Below, piece by piece: positions 15,657-29,930 of a stretch of 64,000 nt of DNA. The stretch is from Blastopirellula sediminis (GTDB lineage: Bacteria; Planctomycetota; Planctomycetia; Pirellulales; Pirellulaceae), in the NCBI RefSeq assembly GCF_020966755.1, contig NZ_JAJKFT010000010.1, positions 1,514,720 to 1,578,719 on the forward strand, read 5' to 3'. The notes below the pieces were generated by a model. The model was not told the DNA's origin and searched no databases. It saw nothing but the letters and a program-made list of their open reading frames with translations. Position 1 is the stretch's first letter, and each line of letters starts with the position of its first letter. Both the position numbers and the translations under genes were made by a program.

Positions 15657-17879
15657 ATGGACTCGGCTGCAGAAATGGGCAGCATGCGAACCTCCGTCAT
15701 TGTCGTCTTGGTGTTGACTCAGTTTCTGATCGGTGCGGCGATCTGCATCTTAGGAATCGTGAACATCGATACGAACATCGAGGACGTCATGCAATGGCTC
15801 CCCGATCATTCTCGCGAACGAACGTTGTACGAAGGACTGGTGGCGCAGTTTGGGGTCGACGATTTCTTGGTGGCTTCTTGGGACGGCTGTACGACGGACG
15901 ATCCGCGTCTCAAGCAAGTCGAGGAGCGGCTGATTGAGGAAGACGCCGACGGACTAATCGCGAAAACGACGTCGGGCGCCGATTTGATCGAAAACGGTTC
16001 GGAGTATGAAAGCGCCGACGCCATCCGCAACCGGTTTCGCGGCATCTTTTTTGGCGACGACGATCAAACCTGCATCGCGATTATCTTGACCAAAGCCGGC
16101 ATGACCAATCGTTTGAAAGCGGTGGAGTATGTCGATCGAGTCGTACGCGCCGGCGTTGGGCCAGATCAATCGGGCGTGTTGATCGTCGGATACCCCGCGA
16201 TCTCGGCGGAAGGGGATCGGCTGATCCGCCAGAATCTGACGAACGCGCTGTTGCCCTGTTGTCTGTTGTCGACGATTGCGGCTTGGTTCTTTCTTCGCGA
16301 CTTGCGGCTGGTCTTGGCGGTCTTCATCACCAGCGGAATTGCTGCAGGGACCAGCATCGCGTTTGTGACTCTCTCGGGACACAAGTGGGGCGGACTCACT
16401 TCGGCGATTCCGGCGTTGACGTTTATTCTGACGGTCTCGGGGACGCTGCACTTGGTGAACTACGCGCGCGGCGCCGATCATGATCAGATCGCGCAGACGG
16501 CGCTGCGTCTTGGTTGGAAGCCATGTCTCTTTTCCGCGATCACGACCGCGGTCAGCATGTTGTCCCTGAGCCACAGCGAATATCAGGCGATTCGCGAGTT
16601 CGGTCTCTTCTGCGCGATCGGCGTCGTGAATTCGGTCTTCTGGCAGTTGGCGTTCGCACCCTGGGCGCTTCAGCTGATTGCGAGGACGATTTCGATCGCT
16701 CGAGCGGGAACGTCCCTGGTCCATATGCACGACTGGACGGCGACGCATCCGGTCTTCGTATTCGGCGTTTTCATGGCGACGTTGGTGGTGACCGCCAGTG
16801 GGTTGCCTAAGTTGGAGAGCGGGCTTGAGGTCGAAGAGATGTTCGGCACGCATACGTTGGCGATTCAGGACGTCATGAAGTTTGAGCGGAAGATTGGGCC
16901 CATCGATCAGACCGAATTGCTCGTCGAGTTTGCGAAGCCTGACCCTGCTCAATTCGCCGATCGAGCGGCCGCGATTCGCGAGTTGCAGAGGGGGCTGGAA
17001 GGGTCCCCCGAGGTCGACGCGACGATGTCGGCCGCCGCCTGGTTACCGCCGGAGCCGGAAACGCGGGGCATCGCCGGCGTGAGCGCTCGCGTGGTCTATC
17101 GGCGGAAATTGGCCAGCCTGCGCGACGAATTAGCCGATACGTCCTACTTGTCGCTACAGAAGAATGAGGAGGGGGAAGAGGCCGAAACGTGGCGCATCAG
17201 TCTTCGCTTTCCCTTCGCCAGAAACGTCGACTTCGCCGAGCTGCGCGACGCTGTGGCTATCGCCACGGAAGCGGAGTTGGCCAAACATTATTCGCCAAGT
17301 GAGTTTGGAGTCGAGCAGACCGGCGTCGGGCTGTTGTACCACGTCGCCCAAAGCAAATTGATGGCCGACCTTTTTTACAACTACTTGCTCGCGTTCGCTG
17401 TGATCTGTCCCTTGATGATCTTGGTGTTGCGATCATTGACGCTCGGCGTGTTGTCGATGATTCCGAACTGCTTCCCGGCAATCTGCTTGTACGGCGCGAT
17501 TGGGCTGTACGGACAAGCGATTGATATCGGCATCGCGATCGCCGGCTGCATTGCGCTCGGAATCGCAGTCGACGACACCACGCACTTCATGCTGCGAGCG
17601 GAAGAGATTTCGTCGCGCGACGGGAAGCAGGGGAGGATCAAGTATAGTGCGATCCGGACAGCCTATTCGCAATGTTCCCGAGCGATGTTGGCGACCACGT
17701 CAATCGCCGCCATCGGCCTTGCCGCGTTTCTGAATCAAACGCTGCTGGTGATGGCCCGGTTCTCGCTGGTCTTGATCCTGTCGCTCTTGATCGCCCTCAT
17801 CTGCGATCTGCTGTTGTTGCCGGCGCTGCTTTACACGTTTCCCGTCACCGAACGAGACGAGCCGGAAGACGTGAGCTAA
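15657..17879 (+). CDS. MMPL/RND-family transporter
   Basis: A 740-aa inner-membrane protein with the RND duplication: one N-terminal helix, a periplasmic domain (about 40-195), six clustered helices, a second periplasmic domain (about 380-560) and six C-terminal helices. The signature GIAVDDTTHFM in the second membrane half matches the proton-relay aspartates of MMPL/patched-like proteins. These export lipids, lipid precursors or hydrophobic compounds using the proton gradient. A TTG 21 bases upstream is possible, but ATG 15657 is preferred. It ends 21 bases before the end of the convergent FAAL-ACP-oxoamine synthase, and such lipid activators and MMPL exporters are paired in mycobacteria, so a role in exporting that enzyme's product is a reasonable inference, not shown by sequence. 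Confidence 0.88.
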   Translation: MDSAAEMGSMRTSVIVVLVLTQFLIGAAICILGIVNIDTNIEDVMQWLPDHSRERTLYEGLVAQFGVDDFLVASWDGCTTDDPRLKQVEERLIEEDADGLIAKTTSGADLIENGSEYESADAIRNRFRGIFFGDDDQTCIAIILTKAGMTNRLKAVEYVDRVVRAGVGPDQSGVLIVGYPAISAEGDRLIRQNLTNALLPCCLLSTIAAWFFLRDLRLVLAVFITSGIAAGTSIAFVTLSGHKWGGLTSAIPALTFILTVSGTLHLVNYARGADHDQIAQTALRLGWKPCLFSAITTAVSMLSLSHSEYQAIREFGLFCAIGVVNSVFWQLAFAPWALQLIARTISIARAGTSLVHMHDWTATHPVFVFGVFMATLVVTASGLPKLESGLEVEEMFGTHTLAIQDVMKFERKIGPIDQTELLVEFAKPDPAQFADRAAAIRELQRGLEGSPEVDATMSAAAWLPPEPETRGIAGVSARVVYRRKLASLRDELADTSYLSLQKNEEGEEAETWRISLRFPFARNVDFAELRDAVAIATEAELAKHYSPSEFGVEQTGVGLLYHVAQSKLMADLFYNYLLAFAVICPLMILVLRSLTLGVLSMIPNCFPAICLYGAIGLYGQAIDIGIAIAGCIALGIAVDDTTHFMLRAEEISSRDGKQGRIKYSAIRTAYSQCSRAMLATTSIAAIGLAAFLNQTLLVMARFSLVLILSLLIALICDLLLLPALLYTFPVTERDEPEDVS

Positions 17880-17887
17880 GCCAGTAA

Positions 17888-17915
17888 CGTCCGACGCGAA
17901 TTAACGCGTCGGACG
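17888..17915. terminator. Perfect hairpin between convergent genes, enclosing a stop codon
   Basis: An 11-bp perfect inverted repeat CGTCCGACGCG/CGCGTCGGACG (17888-17898 and 17905-17915) with a six-base loop AATTAA. The minus-strand gene's stop codon (17901-17903) lies in the loop, so its last codons form one arm. Both transcripts would fold it; neither side has a T run, so factor-independent termination is doubtful, but a shared 3'-end or RNA-stability structure is likely. Confidence 0.6.
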
Positions 17916-20900
17916 GATCGGCACTTCCGGAGTTAACGGAGGATCGCAGAACTCCGGCTGCGGGACCACGTCGGTCTCATCCTTCGTCGTTACTTTTTTT
18001 TCACCGCTTTGCCCACGTGCGATCGCCAGCGCCTGAAAGACGCTGAGGGCGGCGTCGACGTCATCTTCGGTGAGCGACGCCGTTACCGTCGCGCGAATTC
18101 GCGGTTTGTCCATCGGGACGGCCGGGTAGAAGACCGGAACGACGAACAGGCCGTTGTCGCGGCAGTACCCGGTCGCTTCCAGCGTCTCTTGTTCCGTCGG
18201 GAAAATGATCGGAACGACCGCCGATTCGGTCGGCGGCACTTCATAGCCCAGCTGACGAAGGCCATTCACAAACTGGTCGCGCAGTTTTCGTAAGTGACCA
18301 GCGAGGTGCTTTTCGCGGCGGATGATCTCAAAGCACTTCCGTGCGGCGCCAACTTGGGCGGCGGGCAACGAGGCCGAGAAGATAAAGCCGCGAGCATTGC
18401 ACTTCAGGTAGTCGATGATCTCCTGTCGTGCGGCGATGAAACCGCCGCAGCTGGCGATTGACTTCGAGAGGGTTCCCATCTTGATGTCGATCGCGTCGTC
18501 CGGCAGGTTGAAGTACTCCTGGATGCCGCGACCATATTCGCCGATCACGCCCAGGCTGTGGGCTTCGTCGACCATCAACATCGCGCCGTATTGGCGGCAG
18601 AGCTGGACGATCTCGGGAAGAGGAGCGACGTCCCCTTCCATCGAGTAGACTGCGTCGACAATCACGAGGATTCGTTTACCCGAATGTTCCTTCAGCTGCG
18701 CTTCGAGCGCCTGCAGATTGTTGTGCGGGAACATCAGGAAGGTAGCCGCCGAAAACTGGCAACCGTCGACGATGCTGGCGTGGTTCAGCTCGTCGCCGAT
18801 CACCACGTCTCCCTTGCCGACCAACGCGGCGACCGTCGCCATGTTGGTCATGAACCCGCTGCTGTAGACGATCGCGTCATCGGCATGGAAGAAATCGGCG
18901 ATTTCCTTTTCCAGCTCGCGGTGAGCGTCGAACGTACCGGCCAGCAAGCGAACGCCGTGGGCGCCGGTGCCGTACGATTGAATCGCTTCTTCCGCCGCCT
19001 GGTTCACTTCGGGGCGATTGATCAAGCCGAGGTAGCTATAGGACGCCATCATCAGCATCTTGCGATCGCCGACCTGGACGTAGCTCCCTTGTTGATGACC
19101 GATTGGCGTGCCGAAATAGTCGTGGCCAGCTTCGCGGAAGTGATGGAATCGCTTCAGCTTGTCTTTGTAGAAGCCGAGATAGTCCTCTTGCGACAGCGGC
19201 CCGCGATTGGCGCCGGCGTCCGCAGCTGAGCCCGGAGCGCAGCGACTGAGGAACTGGCTAAGCTCGGCGATCGTATGGTGATCGTACAGCGTATCAGCTT
19301 CGATAACGCAGCCCAGCTTCTTCTCGAGTCGAGCGCCGATGTCGGCGGCGGCCAGCGAGTCGATGCCGAGCGAAGTGAAGGTGGTGTGCCCGTCGAGCGG
19401 AGGGAGGCGTTGCTCTTCGTCGCGCGACCATTCCTGCAGCGTTTCGCAAATCAGGGCGGTCAGTTCGGCGGCGCCGGAGGGAGACGTTTCGACCGTTTCC
19501 GGCGTACGCACTTCCGACTCGAAGAGAACTTCAAACTCGCCGCTTTCAAACTTCCGCTTCGTAAGTTGTCGCTGAACTTTGCCGCTGGAGGTGGTCGGGA
19601 AAGTGGTCGGACGGACGAAGACGAGATCGGTTAGCGCGACTTCAAACTCGTTCAGGATGTCGCTGCGGAGCGCGTCGATCTTGTGGTTCAGCTTGACCAG
19701 TTCGCCGTTCGGACCGTGGGGCGAGTTCGACCAGCGAACCATTTCGCGCGAACCGGCCGCGACGACCAGCAGTTTTTCTTCGCCGCCGGATTCGATCGAA
19801 AACGCGGCGCAGCAGTTCGGCAGGATCGCGTCAAAGTGCTGTTCCACCAGCTCTTCGATGTCTTGCGGATAGATGTTGCGACCCCGAATGATGATCAAGT
19901 CTTTCAGGCGGCCGGTTACATAGAGCGTGCCGTCGCGGAGAAAGCCGTAGTCGCCGGTTCGCAGCCAATTGCGCTCGTCGCCGGGCAGCTTCGCTTGGAA
20001 CGAGCTGAGGGACGCTTCCTCACGCTGCCAATAGCCTTTAGCGACGCTGTCGCCGTGGGCCCAGATTTCGCCGACTTCGTTGTCGCTGCACTCGGCGAGA
20101 GTTTCGGGATTGACGATGCGGACTTCCAGATCGGCGCCGATCTGGCCGCAGCTAACCAGCGGGCGACCTTCTTCGGTTTCGACGATGCGATGTTGTTCCA
20201 GCTGCGAGAGATCGACCGTAATGACCTTCGTCTCGGCGAGCGGCGGACCGCCCGAAACGAGCAGCGTCGTTTCGGCCATCCCGTAACAGGGGAAGAAGGC
20301 GTTCGGGCGGAAGCCGCACTCGGCGAATTCCTGGCTGAACCGCTCGAGCGTTTCGGCGCGCACCGGTTCGGAACCGTTAAACGCGACATGCAGCGTCGAG
20401 AGGTCGAGTTTGCTCTTCTGCTCCGGCGTGATCCGTTTGGCGCACAACTCGTAGGCAAAGTTGGGAGCGCCGGTCACCGTCGCTTTGTAATCCGAGACCG
20501 TTTGCAGCCATTTGATCGGGTCGCGCAGGAACGTGTTGGGCGCCATCAAGATCGACGGGGCGCCGACGAACAGCGGTCCTAAGATCCCGCCGATCAGTCC
20601 CATGTCGTGGAACATCGGCAGCCACGAAACCATCACCGAATGGGCGGCGAACTGGAAGTACTTTTGAATCAGCAGTTCGTTGGCGACGATGTTGCCATGC
20701 GTCACCATCACTCCTTTGGGGACCGCCGTCGAACCTGAAGTGTATTGCAAGAACGCCAGCTGATCGGCTTGCAGCTCAGGGAGCGAACCGCCGCTGACGC
20801 TTTCCAGTTGGTCGGTCACGATCACCGGCGCGTTGGCGACCGAACCGGCGATTTCCGCTTCGACGTTGCGACGGGTCTCGGCCGAGCAGAGGAGCAATCG

Positions 20901-21230
20901 CGGCGTGCAATCCTGGGCGATCGTCAGGATCCGCTCGGCGTTACGGTTCTTCTTGGGGGGATAGGCGGGAACAGCGACGATCCCGGCGTACAGGCAGCCC
21001 AGAAAGGCCTCGATAAAGTCGATGCCGGCCTGGTACATCATCAACGCCCGATCGCCAGGCTTGGCGACCGTCAGCAGGTGATGCGCAATCTGTTGAGCTC
21101 GAGCGTCGAGATCTCGGTAGCTGACCGAAATGCTTTCTTCATCCGATTTCAGAAAGGTGAAAGCGGATTTGTCACCCTGCGTATCGACGTGGTTGCGAAG
21201 CGCATCGAGGAGGGTTTCAGGTTTCTTCAT
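17901..21230 (-). CDS. Fused fatty acyl-AMP ligase, acyl carrier protein and alpha-oxoamine synthase
   Basis: A single 1109-aa chain with three modules. Residues 1 to about 575: FAAL-type adenylating domain (LQYTSGSTAVPKGVM motif, GRNIYPQDIEE hinge and C-terminal DLVFV/SGKVQRQ region). About 590-670: acyl carrier protein with the phosphopantetheine site D-S625-L. About 690-1085: PLP-dependent alpha-oxoamine synthase (serine palmitoyltransferase/AONS/KBL class) with GTGAHGVRLLAGT, VDEAHSLGV and the PLP lysine in TLSK923S. Predicted chemistry: activate a fatty acid with ATP, load it on the ACP, and condense it with an amino acid with loss of CO2, giving a 3-keto amine such as a sphingoid-base precursor. 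It ends beside a convergent MMPL transporter. Domain calls are strong; the amino-acid substrate is inferred. No inactivating change seen in any active site. Confidence 0.93.
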   Translation of the reverse strand: MKKPETLLDALRNHVDTQGDKSAFTFLKSDEESISVSYRDLDARAQQIAHHLLTVAKPGDRALMMYQAGIDFIEAFLGCLYAGIVAVPAYPPKKNRNAERILTIAQDCTPRLLLCSAETRRNVEAEIAGSVANAPVIVTDQLESVSGGSLPELQADQLAFLQYTSGSTAVPKGVMVTHGNIVANELLIQKYFQFAAHSVMVSWLPMFHDMGLIGGILGPLFVGAPSILMAPNTFLRDPIKWLQTVSDYKATVTGAPNFAYELCAKRITPEQKSKLDLSTLHVAFNGSEPVRAETLERFSQEFAECGFRPNAFFPCYGMAETTLLVSGGPPLAETKVITVDLSQLEQHRIVETEEGRPLVSCGQIGADLEVRIVNPETLAECSDNEVGEIWAHGDSVAKGYWQREEASLSSFQAKLPGDERNWLRTGDYGFLRDGTLYVTGRLKDLIIIRGRNIYPQDIEELVEQHFDAILPNCCAAFSIESGGEEKLLVVAAGSREMVRWSNSPHGPNGELVKLNHKIDALRSDILNEFEVALTDLVFVRPTTFPTTSSGKVQRQLTKRKFESGEFEVLFESEVRTPETVETSPSGAAELTALICETLQEWSRDEEQRLPPLDGHTTFTSLGIDSLAAADIGARLEKKLGCVIEADTLYDHHTIAELSQFLSRCAPGSAADAGANRGPLSQEDYLGFYKDKLKRFHHFREAGHDYFGTPIGHQQGSYVQVGDRKMLMMASYSYLGLINRPEVNQAAEEAIQSYGTGAHGVRLLAGTFDAHRELEKEIADFFHADDAIVYSSGFMTNMATVAALVGKGDVVIGDELNHASIVDGCQFSAATFLMFPHNNLQALEAQLKEHSGKRILVIVDAVYSMEGDVAPLPEIVQLCRQYGAMLMVDEAHSLGVIGEYGRGIQEYFNLPDDAIDIKMGTLSKSIASCGGFIAARQEIIDYLKCNARGFIFSASLPAAQVGAARKCFEIIRREKHLAGHLRKLRDQFVNGLRQLGYEVPPTESAVVPIIFPTEQETLEATGYCRDNGLFVVPVFYPAVPMDKPRIRATVTASLTEDDVDAALSVFQALAIARGQSGEKKVTTKDETDVVPQPEFCDPPLTPEVPIRPTR

Positions 21231-21908: not shown

Positions 21909-22337
21909 ATGAAGCAGGCAAAACGAACCATCGTGCATGTCGACGATTCCAAAGTGATCTTGGAAATGGTTCACGATCTTCTCACCGAGATCGGATTTGA
22001 CGCCTGCTCGGTAGACGACCCCTGCCGCGTTCCGGAAGCGCTCGAAGCGACCGGCAGCCGGATCCTGATCTCCGACATCGAAATGCCGCAGATGAACGGA
22101 CTCGACCTGCTGAAGCGGACCAAAGGGGAAGACGGCGGCATCAGCGTGATCATGTTGACCGGCGCCGTCGGCCCGAGCGCCGTCCTGCAATCGATGCGGT
22201 GGGGCGCCGAGGCTTGCCACTTCAAACCGCTCAACAACACCTCGCGACTCATCGAGTCGATCCAAGCGGCCTACGCCAAACAAAACGGCTGGTGGACGTC
22301 GCTGAACGAGTCGCACAAGCCGACGCGGTTGGTTTAG
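21909..22337 (+). CDS. Stand-alone response regulator receiver protein
   Basis: A CheY-like single receiver domain of 142 aa from ATG 21909. Key residues are all present: the acidic pair D12-D13 in VDDSK, phosphoacceptor D56 in LISDIEMP, T84 in MLTG, and K106 in HFKPL. No output domain, so it acts through protein contacts, for example as a phospho-relay or chemotaxis-type output. No histidine kinase is adjacent. A longer open frame starts at 21822 and a GTG at 21897 is possible; the ATG immediately before the first beta strand is the best fit to the fold. It converges on the WD40 gene that ends 22 bases downstream. Confidence 0.88.
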   Translation: MKQAKRTIVHVDDSKVILEMVHDLLTEIGFDACSVDDPCRVPEALEATGSRILISDIEMPQMNGLDLLKRTKGEDGGISVIMLTGAVGPSAVLQSMRWGAEACHFKPLNNTSRLIESIQAAYAKQNGWWTSLNESHKPTRLV

Positions 22338-25163: not shown

Positions 25164-26828
25164 ATGCGACGACAATTCATCTCACTGGGGACGGTTCTTC
25201 TTTCACTCGGATGTTTGACCTTGCCGATGGCTTACGCAGGTCCGCCAGGAGGATTCTTCGGTGGGTTTGCCCCGCCGCAACCGCCGACGCCGGGTTACCG
25301 TTCGCACTCAAGCTCAAGCAGCAGCCCAAGCGTCGCTAACGACGTTCTCAGCATCGTCGGCGGCGCGTTTGGTGCTTTCAATCAAGCGAATAATAATCAG
25401 AACCACAACCACAATCACGCGTATAGCCACAACAATGGCTACAGCTACAACAACGGATACAACCGCAGTTACCAACCGCGTACCGTCCCAGCCCCGAACG
25501 TAATTCCTTCTCCCGCGCCTGCTCCGAAGCCGGTGCAAATCCAGCCGAAGAAGAACAAGGCGCCGGTCGTCACCGTCAAGCCGAAGGCGAACGTGATGTT
25601 CACCTCCGCTCGTTTCCTCTCGTTGACTGCCGCCAATCTGCAGCAGATCAACGACGAAGTGATTGAGCAACAGGAAAACGACCTTGATGAAGCGGAAGAG
25701 AAGCTGAAGGACCATCTTCCCCCTGACGAAGCGACTCTCCTTGACCAGATGAATAACTCTGGGATTACGGACCGGGCGAAGAAAATGGAGATTCTGGACG
25801 CGGTAAAGGATGGCGATGCGGATCGGGCTCGGCGACTGTGGGTAGAAGCTAACGGCAGGTCGACCGACGCCCGCGAATTGGAAAAGAAAGTTGACTTGCA
25901 AAACCAACTGAATGAATTGCGAGAACGTAATCGGAACGGCGACCTTTCTCGCCGCGATCTCAAGAACTTTGCCAATAGCGTCCGCGACAAGATGGGCGCA
26001 GGGCGAGACCGGGACGAACTGATGGACCATCTGGACAAGATGGCCGACCGCGCCGATCTGCAGGACTTGCTCAATAACGCCACGCCGAATGCCGGGACCA
26101 TGGGGCTGGGGAGCGGATCACTGTCGGTCATCTACAACCCGAATATGCCGGAGGGGAAGGTGGTTAACCTGGGCAACGGGACGGTGATGGTCGGAACCGA
26201 TCGCGGTGAACTCGAAATCGGGCAGGCTACCTTAGCCGAAGCGCTTGGTATGAAGGTCGCCCAAGGCGAACCGGAGCCGGAGTCGGACGCCAAGATTCCG
26301 ACCAGCGGCGTCGTGCTGCGGAATAGCAAATCGTCGCAGGGTTCGGTCTCGTATGTGGTCAACAGCAAGTACAGCTACGAAATGCAGCCCGGACATATCC
26401 AGTCGCTCGGCAACGGACCGTGGACGGTCGCGTACGATCGCGGCGGTTCGTTCGGCGAAGCGAAGTACACGCTGGATAAGGGAACGTACGAATTTCGACC
26501 GAGCGAAAACGGCTGGAACCTGTATGCCAAGAAGTTTGAGGTGGTGATTGACAACTCGGGCAACCCTGGAGAGTTTCACTATGTCGTCAACAACGTCGCC
26601 AAGACGGTGGCGTCCAACTCAACGCAGACCCACACCAGCGAATACCCGATCGAAGTCCGTTTTGATCGCGGCGACGGTAACGGAACGAAACGGAAGGTGT
26701 TGAGCGACGGCCGCTACGAAGTTGCCGTCAGCCCGCAGGATAACTTGTGGGATTTGTACTCGGCCGATGCGGAGCGAAGCGTCGCGACGGGAAACGCCGC
26801 GACGATCAGCCTCTTCGGAAATGACTAG
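25164..26828 (+). CDS. Secreted protein of unknown function, copy A
   Basis: A 554-aa exported protein (signal peptide to about residue 25, MAYA-GPPGG). Then a Gly/Pro-rich and Asn/His-rich low-complexity region (about 26-125), a Lys/Pro linker, a long charged helical region (about 145-300) and a conserved C-terminal half. The latter contains two tandem units of about 76 residues (about 395-470 and 471-548) sharing YVVN near the start, FDRG in the middle, a G-x-YE turn and a W-x-LY end. It is a paralogue of the gene at 28248; the C-terminal 270 residues are nearly identical, while the His/Asn-rich part differs. No enzyme motif recognised. A strong terminator follows at 26847. Likely periplasmic or surface; histidine-rich region may bind metal (inference). 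Confidence 0.85.
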   Translation: MRRQFISLGTVLLSLGCLTLPMAYAGPPGGFFGGFAPPQPPTPGYRSHSSSSSSPSVANDVLSIVGGAFGAFNQANNNQNHNHNHAYSHNNGYSYNNGYNRSYQPRTVPAPNVIPSPAPAPKPVQIQPKKNKAPVVTVKPKANVMFTSARFLSLTAANLQQINDEVIEQQENDLDEAEEKLKDHLPPDEATLLDQMNNSGITDRAKKMEILDAVKDGDADRARRLWVEANGRSTDARELEKKVDLQNQLNELRERNRNGDLSRRDLKNFANSVRDKMGAGRDRDELMDHLDKMADRADLQDLLNNATPNAGTMGLGSGSLSVIYNPNMPEGKVVNLGNGTVMVGTDRGELEIGQATLAEALGMKVAQGEPEPESDAKIPTSGVVLRNSKSSQGSVSYVVNSKYSYEMQPGHIQSLGNGPWTVAYDRGGSFGEAKYTLDKGTYEFRPSENGWNLYAKKFEVVIDNSGNPGEFHYVVNNVAKTVASNSTQTHTSEYPIEVRFDRGDGNGTKRKVLSDGRYEVAVSPQDNLWDLYSADAERSVATGNAATISLFGND

Positions 26829-28247: not shown

Positions 28248-29930
28248 ATGCGACGAAACATTCTCTCGATGGGCGTAGGTTTTCTTCTGTGCGGTTGTTT
28301 GTCGGCTCCGGTGGCGTTTGCCGGCCCTCCAGGCGGTCTGTTTGGCGGGGGATCGTCTGGCTTTGGCGGGTTCGGAGGTTTCGGCGGACATCATCACGGC
28401 GAAGGGGGTTCAGATATCGCCGCCGGGGTGCTGAACATCGTCGGCTCGGCGATCAACGCCGCCTCTCAGTCGGGGCATGGCGGCCATCATCCAGGCCATG
28501 GTCATCATCCAGGGCACGGACATAATCCTTGGCCTCAACACAATCATGGTCATCATCACCACACGGTTCCGGTTTACCCATCGACTTCGTCGCCGATTTA
28601 CGTCGAAAGCCGCCCGCAACCGCAGCCGGCGCCGCTTCCGGATGTGAAGCCGAAGAAGAACGAAGCGCCGATCGTCGCGGTGAAGCCGAAACCGAATACC
28701 GTTTTCGCTTCCGCTCGTTTTCTTTCGCTAACCAGCGCCGATCTGAAGCGGGCTGATGAAAAGTTGACCGAGGAACAAGAAGAGAATCTCGACGACGTCG
28801 AGGACCTGCTGAAAGACGAACTGCCGCCGGACGAAAACGATCTGTTAGACAAGATGAAAGCGGCCGGCATCAAAGACACGAACAAGCAACTGGAGATTCT
28901 GGAACTAACGAAAAATGGGGAAGCGGGCAAAGCTCAAGTGGCCTGGATCCAAGCCGGCGGCAGCCCGGAGGACGCCCGAAAACTTGGCAAACAGATCGAA
29001 TTGCAGAACAACCTGAACGAGCTTCGCGAACGCAATGTCGACGGGCGCCTGACCAAGCGAGACGTTAAGCGATTCGCCGACGACGTTCGCGACGTGATGG
29101 GGCAAGGCAACGATCGGGACGAAGTGCTGGATCGACTCGCCGGCGTTTCGGACACGATTGAAATCCAGGAATTGATCCGCGACGCTCGACCGAACGCCGG
29201 CAACAGCGGACTGGGCGGCGGCATGGTGACCGTCGTGCAAAACCCGAACCTGATGCCGGGCCAGGTGGTGAACCTGGGGAATGGAACGCTGATGGTCGGT
29301 ACCGATCAAGGGGAACTGGAAATTGGTCAAGCGATGCTGGCCGAAGCGCTCGGCATGAAGGTCGCCCAGACCGAACCTACTCCGGAATCGGACGCCAAGA
29401 TTCCGACCAGCGGCGTCGTGCTGCGGAATGACGAAACCTCGCCGGGCGTCGTGTCGTACGTCATCAACAAGAAGTTCGACTACGAGATGCAGCCGGGGCA
29501 TCTCCAGGCGTTGGGAAGCGGCACGTGGACCGTCACCTTCGATCGTGGCGGTTCGTTCGGCGAAGGGAAGTACACCTTGAATAAGGGAACCTACGAGTTC
29601 CAACCGAGTGAAAACGGCTGGAACCTTTTCGCGAAGAAGTTCGAGGTCGTGATCGACAACGCTGGCAACCCGGGTGAGTTCCACTATGTCGTCAACAACG
29701 TCGCGAAAACGGTGGCGCCGAATTCGACGCAAACGCACACCAGCGACTACCCGATCGAAGTTCGCTTTGATCGCGGCGACGGCGCCGGAGCGAAACGCAA
29801 GGTGCTGAGCGACGGACGCTACGAAATCGCCGTGAGCCCGAATGACAACCTGTGGGACCTCTATTCGGCCGACGCGGCACAGATCGTCTCGACCAGCGAC
29901 ATGCAAACGATCAGCCTCTTCGGCAACTAA
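28248..29930 (+). CDS. Secreted protein of unknown function, copy B
   Basis: A 560-aa paralogue of the protein at 25164. Signal peptide to about residue 25 (VAFA-GPPGG); the preceding LCGC could also act as a weak lipobox. Low-complexity region is Gly/His-rich (repeated GHHPGHG between about residues 80 and 110), then helical charged region and the conserved C-terminal half with two tandem 76-residue units. Shared blocks with copy A include GNGTxMVGTDxGELEIGQA, SDAKIPTSGVVLRN and ENGWNL. His-rich region suggests metal affinity (inference). Followed by a terminator at 29955. No enzyme family recognised. Confidence 0.85.
   Translation: MRRNILSMGVGFLLCGCLSAPVAFAGPPGGLFGGGSSGFGGFGGFGGHHHGEGGSDIAAGVLNIVGSAINAASQSGHGGHHPGHGHHPGHGHNPWPQHNHGHHHHTVPVYPSTSSPIYVESRPQPQPAPLPDVKPKKNEAPIVAVKPKPNTVFASARFLSLTSADLKRADEKLTEEQEENLDDVEDLLKDELPPDENDLLDKMKAAGIKDTNKQLEILELTKNGEAGKAQVAWIQAGGSPEDARKLGKQIELQNNLNELRERNVDGRLTKRDVKRFADDVRDVMGQGNDRDEVLDRLAGVSDTIEIQELIRDARPNAGNSGLGGGMVTVVQNPNLMPGQVVNLGNGTLMVGTDQGELEIGQAMLAEALGMKVAQTEPTPESDAKIPTSGVVLRNDETSPGVVSYVINKKFDYEMQPGHLQALGSGTWTVTFDRGGSFGEGKYTLNKGTYEFQPSENGWNLFAKKFEVVIDNAGNPGEFHYVVNNVAKTVAPNSTQTHTSDYPIEVRFDRGDGAGAKRKVLSDGRYEIAVSPNDNLWDLYSADAAQIVSTSDMQTISLFGN

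Follow-up and report, generated by a model that had tools for sequence, protein, structure and literature searches.

The closest described systems to the gene treated here are the AasR-AcpR-SPT trios of Caulobacter (CC_1165/1163/1162) and Escherichia coli BL21 (aasR-acpR-spt). In these AasR, an activator of the fatty acyl-AMP ligase (FAAL) family, loads a dedicated acyl carrier protein (ACP), AcpR, for the pyridoxal phosphate (PLP)-dependent condensing enzyme serine palmitoyltransferase (SPT), a chemistry demonstrated in PMC9386255. In BL21 the genes yghO (aca), aasR, epi (of the epimerase family), acpR and spt are clustered; the FAAL-type gene in the aasR position, which we matched to that paper by gene order, is annotated “fatty acyl-AMP ligase”. 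The window (the whole stretch of DNA analysed here, 64,000 nucleotides of a Blastopirellula sediminis contig) has a single uninterrupted gene whose product, judging from its sequence, joins members of these three families in one chain: FAAL, ACP and a PLP alpha-oxoamine synthase (AOS). The original prediction, made from the letters of the window, likened this chain to the Caulobacter trio, and the analogy appears to hold for the E. coli B trio as well, the same three families being separate in BL21. We consider it very probable that the chain carries out a self-loading condensation, from FAAL to ACP to AOS; that it is a single-chain version of AasR-AcpR-SPT, supplying a long-chain amino ketone to a sphingolipid-like pathway, is the explanation we favor, though with distinctly less assurance.

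The architecture is well defined (Table 1). Pfam finds, in order, AMP-binding (residues 12-401, E 1.9e-74), PP-binding (606-661, E 9.7e-13) and Aminotran_1_2 (724-1063, E 2.6e-55), in agreement with the three families originally proposed; the span and the length of 1109 residues given then were also exact, and we can add the strand. The best solved matches of the N-terminal module are 7r7f (505 bits, 3.5e-150) and 3kxw (424 bits), both of which we take to be FAALs. The NCBIfam FAAL models match it too, below their cut-offs, and we assign it to the FAALs as the closest among solved enzymes. The best solved sequence match of the C-terminal module is the Sphingobacterium SPT 8guh (2.2e-83). An AlphaFold2 model of the ACP and AOS, built from 28 sequences (mean pLDDT 86), provides part of the structure prediction that had been suggested at the outset: the predicted fold is that of an oxoamine synthase, with the S. 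multivorum SPT structures 8guh (TM-score 0.96 by target length, rmsd 1.6) and 3a2b (0.94) as nearest neighbours, followed by KBL-type enzymes and the Thermus AOS, and the PLP lysine, K923, is present. A full-chain model made without an alignment had a pLDDT of 35.6 and was not used. The 18 full-length fusions compared comprise the window type (group A) and a second type (group B, described below), and in all of them K551, D624-S625-L626, D888, H891, R1044 and R1046 are invariant, with K923 nearly so. S625 and K923 lie exactly where they had been predicted, and the three active-site motifs are indeed intact.

Table 1. Coordinates of the fusion gene, its modules and key residues, and of related or adjoining genes (window positions unless a contig is given)
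Feature	Position	Strand	Basis or remark
FAAL-ACP-AOS fusion gene, 1109 aa	17901..21230 (ATG at 21230, stop at 17901)	-	ORF and Pfam; full length in 4/4 genus genomes
FAAL module, residues 1-570	19521..21230	-	Pfam AMP-binding; best solved match FAAL 7r7f; motif YTSGSTAVPKG
SSGK lysine K551 of FAAL module	19578-19580	-	invariant in 18 full-length fusions
ACP domain, residues 606-661	19248..19415	-	Pfam PP-binding
Phosphopantetheine serine S625	19356-19358	-	D624-S625-L626 invariant in 18 fusions
PLP AOS module, residues 700-1066	18033..19133	-	Pfam Aminotran_1_2; SPT 3a2b/8guh best solved match
PLP lysine K923	18462-18464	-	nearly invariant in 18 fusions
MMPL-family transporter gene	15657..17879	+	Pfam MMPL 2.4e-17; convergent with fusion, 21 bp between stops
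Group B paralogue, window genome	G000:C10:3674586-3677957		

The fusion is no artefact, because all four genomes of the genus have the entire chain without stops; the three other copies are 78-85% identical to that of the window. The dN/dS ratios against these genomes are 0.11-0.14 for the FAAL, 0.08-0.30 for the linker and ACP and 0.06-0.08 for the AOS, and drift is limited to the last ~34 residues. The gene is under purifying selection, and a chance fusion or an assembly fault is ruled out by the intact chains and the low ratios together.

With respect to mechanism, the FAAL module would convert a free fatty acid to the acyl-AMP and load the acyl group onto the chain’s own ACP, at the phosphopantetheine carried by S625. 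Condensation of this acyl thioester with an amino acid, catalysed by the PLP module through K923, would then yield a long-chain alpha-amino ketone with loss of CO2. The likeliest product would be a 3-keto sphingoid-type base, made from serine (or perhaps alanine or glycine). Enzymes encoded elsewhere in the genome, a short-chain dehydrogenase/reductase (SDR) and the aca product, could turn this into a ceramide-like lipid, with possible export by the MMPL protein.

To place the AOS domain we used a maximum-likelihood tree that kept 70 of 102 domains, near-copies and long branches having been thinned by hand; it has no outgroup, and L172 as well as the BioF and KBL of E. coli sit on long branches (L and G numbers are our handles for loci and genomes). 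An earlier first tree had kept 92 of 128 sequences. There are three groups: BioF/KBL with the Thermus AOS (support 99/93); the proven SPTs with the SPT-like genes of planctomycete ceramide clusters (99/95); and a lineage (99/94) that has the window AOS and, separately, the group B fusions. L172 falls in none of them. By this placement the window AOS is a member of the third, uncharacterised lineage. Its closest kin are ACP-AOS genes of the split kind from its own family and order, to which it is sister, five split copies and the window AOS forming one clade (99/97). The firm grouping of the PLP domain with AONS or KBL, named with the original prediction as the outcome that would speak against it, is thus not what the tree gives, the BioF/KBL sequences being in a clade apart. 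In approximately unbiased (AU) tests, joining the whole 29-row lineage with SPT as one clade was not rejected (p-AU 0.28), and joining it with BioF/KBL was weakly rejected (p-AU 0.03); without an outgroup, more than one part of the tree could be nearest to the window lineage. Earlier AU tests, in which group A and the ACP-AOS genes were held with SPT or with BioF/KBL, gave p 0.0024 and 6.7e-05, but these rejections weigh little because group A’s own clade-mates were left outside the constraint. A third test of that earlier set, SPT with group B, also ended in rejection.

The window AOS also misses every NCBIfam AOS cut-off: it scores 388 of the 426 bits required for bioF, its top score among these models, 363 of 460 and 300 of 493 for kbl, 371 of 640, 325 of 500 and 264 of 670 for the SPT equivalogs, and 191.6 of 428 for the CqsA model NF005526. 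The leading place of bioF might be taken to mean that this is a BioF- or KBL-like enzyme of biotin or threonine metabolism, fused to the other modules by happenstance. We find this very hard to credit: the score is under the cut-off, whereas a separate BioF-like gene in the window genome exceeds it (449.6 bits vs 426), so biotin offers no explanation for the fusion; the domain is outside the BioF/KBL clade; and selection has maintained the FAAL and ACP modules. A role in biotin or threonine metabolism was rejected on the scores, the clade and the AU test; SPT proper, in the sense of the proven-SPT clade, is not supported by the placement.

The genomic context of the relatives bears on the fate of the product. 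The window AOS type occurs in 16 of 241 family genomes, as a fusion in four, all of the window genus, and as split ACP-AOS open frames of 520-600 aa in the other 12; absences in these wide scans are soft, because only 2-6 candidates were scored per genome. No FAAL was seen within the 11-20 kb read around nine of the split copies. An SDR adjoins the split ACP-AOS in 5/10 loci examined, from three genera (L043, L258, L259, L260, L261; L074 and L260 were treated as one contig, on the length of L074), and an SDR of this type adjoins aca in 7/40 relatives (G005, G008, G009, G017, G023, G024, G030). The SDR is found at E<=1e-25 in 24/40 relatives and aca/YghO homologues in 37/40, the window genome being included in both counts; its aca is 38% identical to YghO (E 3.9e-70). 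Thus homologues of both epi and aca are encoded in the same genome as the fusion (G000:C10:316554-317561 and 628481-629590), unlinked to it. An E. coli SPT query at E<=1e-75, run without a positive control, had matches in 0/40 relatives.

Outside the order, where 15 aca loci were chosen for long frames or high scores, an AOS directly adjoins aca in 10, nine of which have an SDR match too, a context suggesting that the planctomycete aca family is the ceramide one; inside the order an adjacent AOS is found in only 2/29 aca loci examined (p 6e-05 against those outside). Among the relatives, aca is present in 32/32 with a fused FAAL-ACP-AOS frame vs 4/7 without (p 0.004, shared descent ignored). 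We assigned these labels from open frames, leaving out G005, whose gene is broken by contigs, and counting as fused G008, where it runs off the end of a contig. In a sample of 392 genomes from the phylum, aca is present in 114, including all 11 with a full-length group B chain; when G259, a genome outside the order whose group B-like chain is truncated at a contig end, is counted in, the figure is 11/12 (p 8e-06, shared descent again ignored). Compact SDR-spt-aca sets occur in planctomycetes outside the order (L213, L215-L220, L222, L225), L228, inside it, has two aca genes in tandem, and at L201:8992-15000 (G005) and L203 (G008) a protein of 1221-1275 aa with an MMPL match adjoins aca.

The AOS might, alternatively, take another amino acid, for example glycine, threonine or cysteate, and so feed a non-sphingolipid membrane lipid. 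Its position in the third lineage would suit this, as would active-site stretches intermediate between those of SPT and those of KBL and the Thermus AOS; but the linkage of the split kin to an SDR, and of that SDR to aca, points the other way, and so does SPT as the best match of the predicted fold. We regard this possibility as improbable.

Several observations do weigh against a sphingolipid-like pathway. The window AOS is outside the clade of proven SPTs in the 70-domain tree and lacks residues common in SPTs, such as the Asn of S-R-F/M-x-N-G, and when the gene list of the window was read by eye neither an SDR nor aca was seen near the fusion. It is for these reasons that we are less sure of the sphingoid-base step than of the chemistry; of the SPT parallel first proposed, the three-part architecture stands, but membership of the PLP domain in the SPT clade, or in any NCBIfam AOS family by its cut-off, does not. 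The other five split loci have no SDR (L041, L042, L073, L256, L257). In three of the four genus genomes the SDR is instead the gene directly after the BioF-like one (G000:C10:315406-317561, G001, G002), and in the fourth, G003, a search at E<=1e-25 gives no SDR. In G259 no aca is matched even when the threshold is relaxed to E<=0.001. Moreover, the co-occurrence with aca concerns mostly group B, and group B could therefore be the ceramide enzyme and the window fusion something else. Finally, an SPT-like AOS of Nostoc yielded no sphingolipids, according to PMC8895605.

Such an alternative role is suggested by the neighbourhood. The fusion gene is solitary: upstream, the next called gene, on the opposite strand (21909-22337), lies ~680 bp from its start, and we read it as a response regulator. 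On its other side lies the convergent MMPL gene, whose product is a candidate exporter. The two are paired in 4/4 genus genomes, with MMPL proteins 76-79% identical. The same chemistry could yield a specialised metabolite or signal that the cell exports, namely a fatty amino ketone comparable to those of CqsA- or PigH-type enzymes, with the membrane sphingoid base left to group B, a chain of which is also encoded in the window genome. An MMPL gene is likewise found near related AOS chains, as the next gene in L090 and three genes on in L062. However, MMPL is close to an AOS in only 1/80 named loci (two without a called AOS gene, many cut by contig ends), no MMPL match was found around nine split kin, five of them beside an SDR, synteny in the genus is partly retained in any case, and the CqsA score is low. 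An exported amino-ketone lipid remains the chief rival because of the conserved pair and of the MMPL genes near the L090 and L062 chains; we nevertheless judge it unlikely. Further along the window (25164-26828 and 28248-29930) are two neighbouring genes, similar-looking and without any Pfam match.

Group B is a second FAAL-ACP-AOS chain, differently derived and common in the order. Its AOS has cyanobacterial ACP-AOS proteins as nearest kin in the tree. In a FAAL tree of 48 rows, from which L134, L143, L146 and L047 (fragments or no match) were left out, group A forms its own lineage, not within group B, with the deep forks unresolved. The simplest reading is that the chain was assembled at least two times separately. 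The architecture is thus not unique: besides group B, Bacillota have AMP-binding-ACP-AOS chains of 1056-1057 aa (L134:6225-9398 and L146:1084-4254, the two checked by Pfam), whose adenylation domains match the window FAAL weakly (20-36 bits). Occurrence beyond the planctomycetes is a sample, among the matches listed. Returning to the sphingolipid-like pathway, we would advance, tentatively and as somewhat doubtful, a broader joint proposal: that at least two such weldings took place in one planctomycete order and that the fused chains now fill the place of SPT in ceramide synthesis, the reductase and the N-acyltransferase being encoded, as before, by separate genes, so that one polypeptide starts sphingoid-type lipid synthesis directly from free fatty acid.

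Other AOS chains are more elaborate. The window genome has a ~2555-aa chain ending in a group B-type AOS (L047:8418-16085; G000:C10, ~758-766 kb), and a member of the Magnetococcales has a 1937-aa FAAL-ACP-KS-DH-ACP-AOS protein (L090:2201-11317), with the MMPL gene next to it. In a distant planctomycete the AOS is fused to DUF3419, presumably BtaA-like, in an unusual run of lipid genes (L062:7661-14211; G273:C568) that continues with a phosphatidylserine-decarboxylase-like gene, an unassigned gene and the MMPL gene; the same genome has a separate SDR-spt-aca set (L215). The neighbours of other AOS relatives (10 proteins, including the L090 chain) are mostly housekeeping or unrelated genes, L090 being the exception.

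Among the matches listed, in a literature that mostly excludes subscription papers, no title or abstract opening concerned a FAAL-ACP-AOS fusion. Spt-like proteins have been reported in 138 Planctomycetota metagenome-assembled genomes, with some matches within longer proteins, in PMC11334938, and the words “fused” and “fusion” are absent from that text. Given this report, the enzyme that starts the pathway in planctomycetes is a live question. If our interpretation is correct, the fusion would offer a one-gene test for sphingoid lipid synthesis in planctomycetes and a natural model of acyl transfer from a FAAL to a condensing enzyme without release; surveys based on the stand-alone SPT clade could then overlook what is probably the entry enzyme in an entire order.

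How, then, does the window chain compare with known systems? PigH- and CqsA-type synthases share with it a PLP-dependent condensation to amino ketones, and in PigH the AOS is fused to ACPs; neither type is known to have a FAAL module, and the window AOS scores low on the CqsA family. By sequence and by fold the Sphingobacterium multivorum SPT (3a2b/8guh) is the nearest solved structure to the AOS module, but it was solved as a single-domain chain of ~398 aa and belongs to a different clade. Closer are the split planctomycete ACP-AOS proteins (e.g. L043, L042, L041), 41-43% identical over the ACP-AOS and a sister clade by AOS, which differ in having no FAAL in the chain, or in the 11-20 kb surveyed around nine copies, and, in half of the loci, an adjoining SDR. 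The group B paralogue has the same three-part order in the same genome, but its AOS is in another clade (100/100) and the identities are only 36% for the AOS and 44% for the FAAL; group B is widespread in the order, whereas fused group A was found in the window genus only (4/241 family genomes). As to the AasR-AcpR-SPT trios, the window chain shares 33.5% (FAAL) and 35% (AOS) identity with its counterparts in E. coli BL21, its ACP has no similarity to AcpR detectable by blastp, its AOS is not of the SPT clade, and neither epi nor aca lies alongside; what is common to them is the set of a FAAL-family activator, a dedicated ACP and a PLP condensing enzyme, encoded there by three genes and here in one chain.

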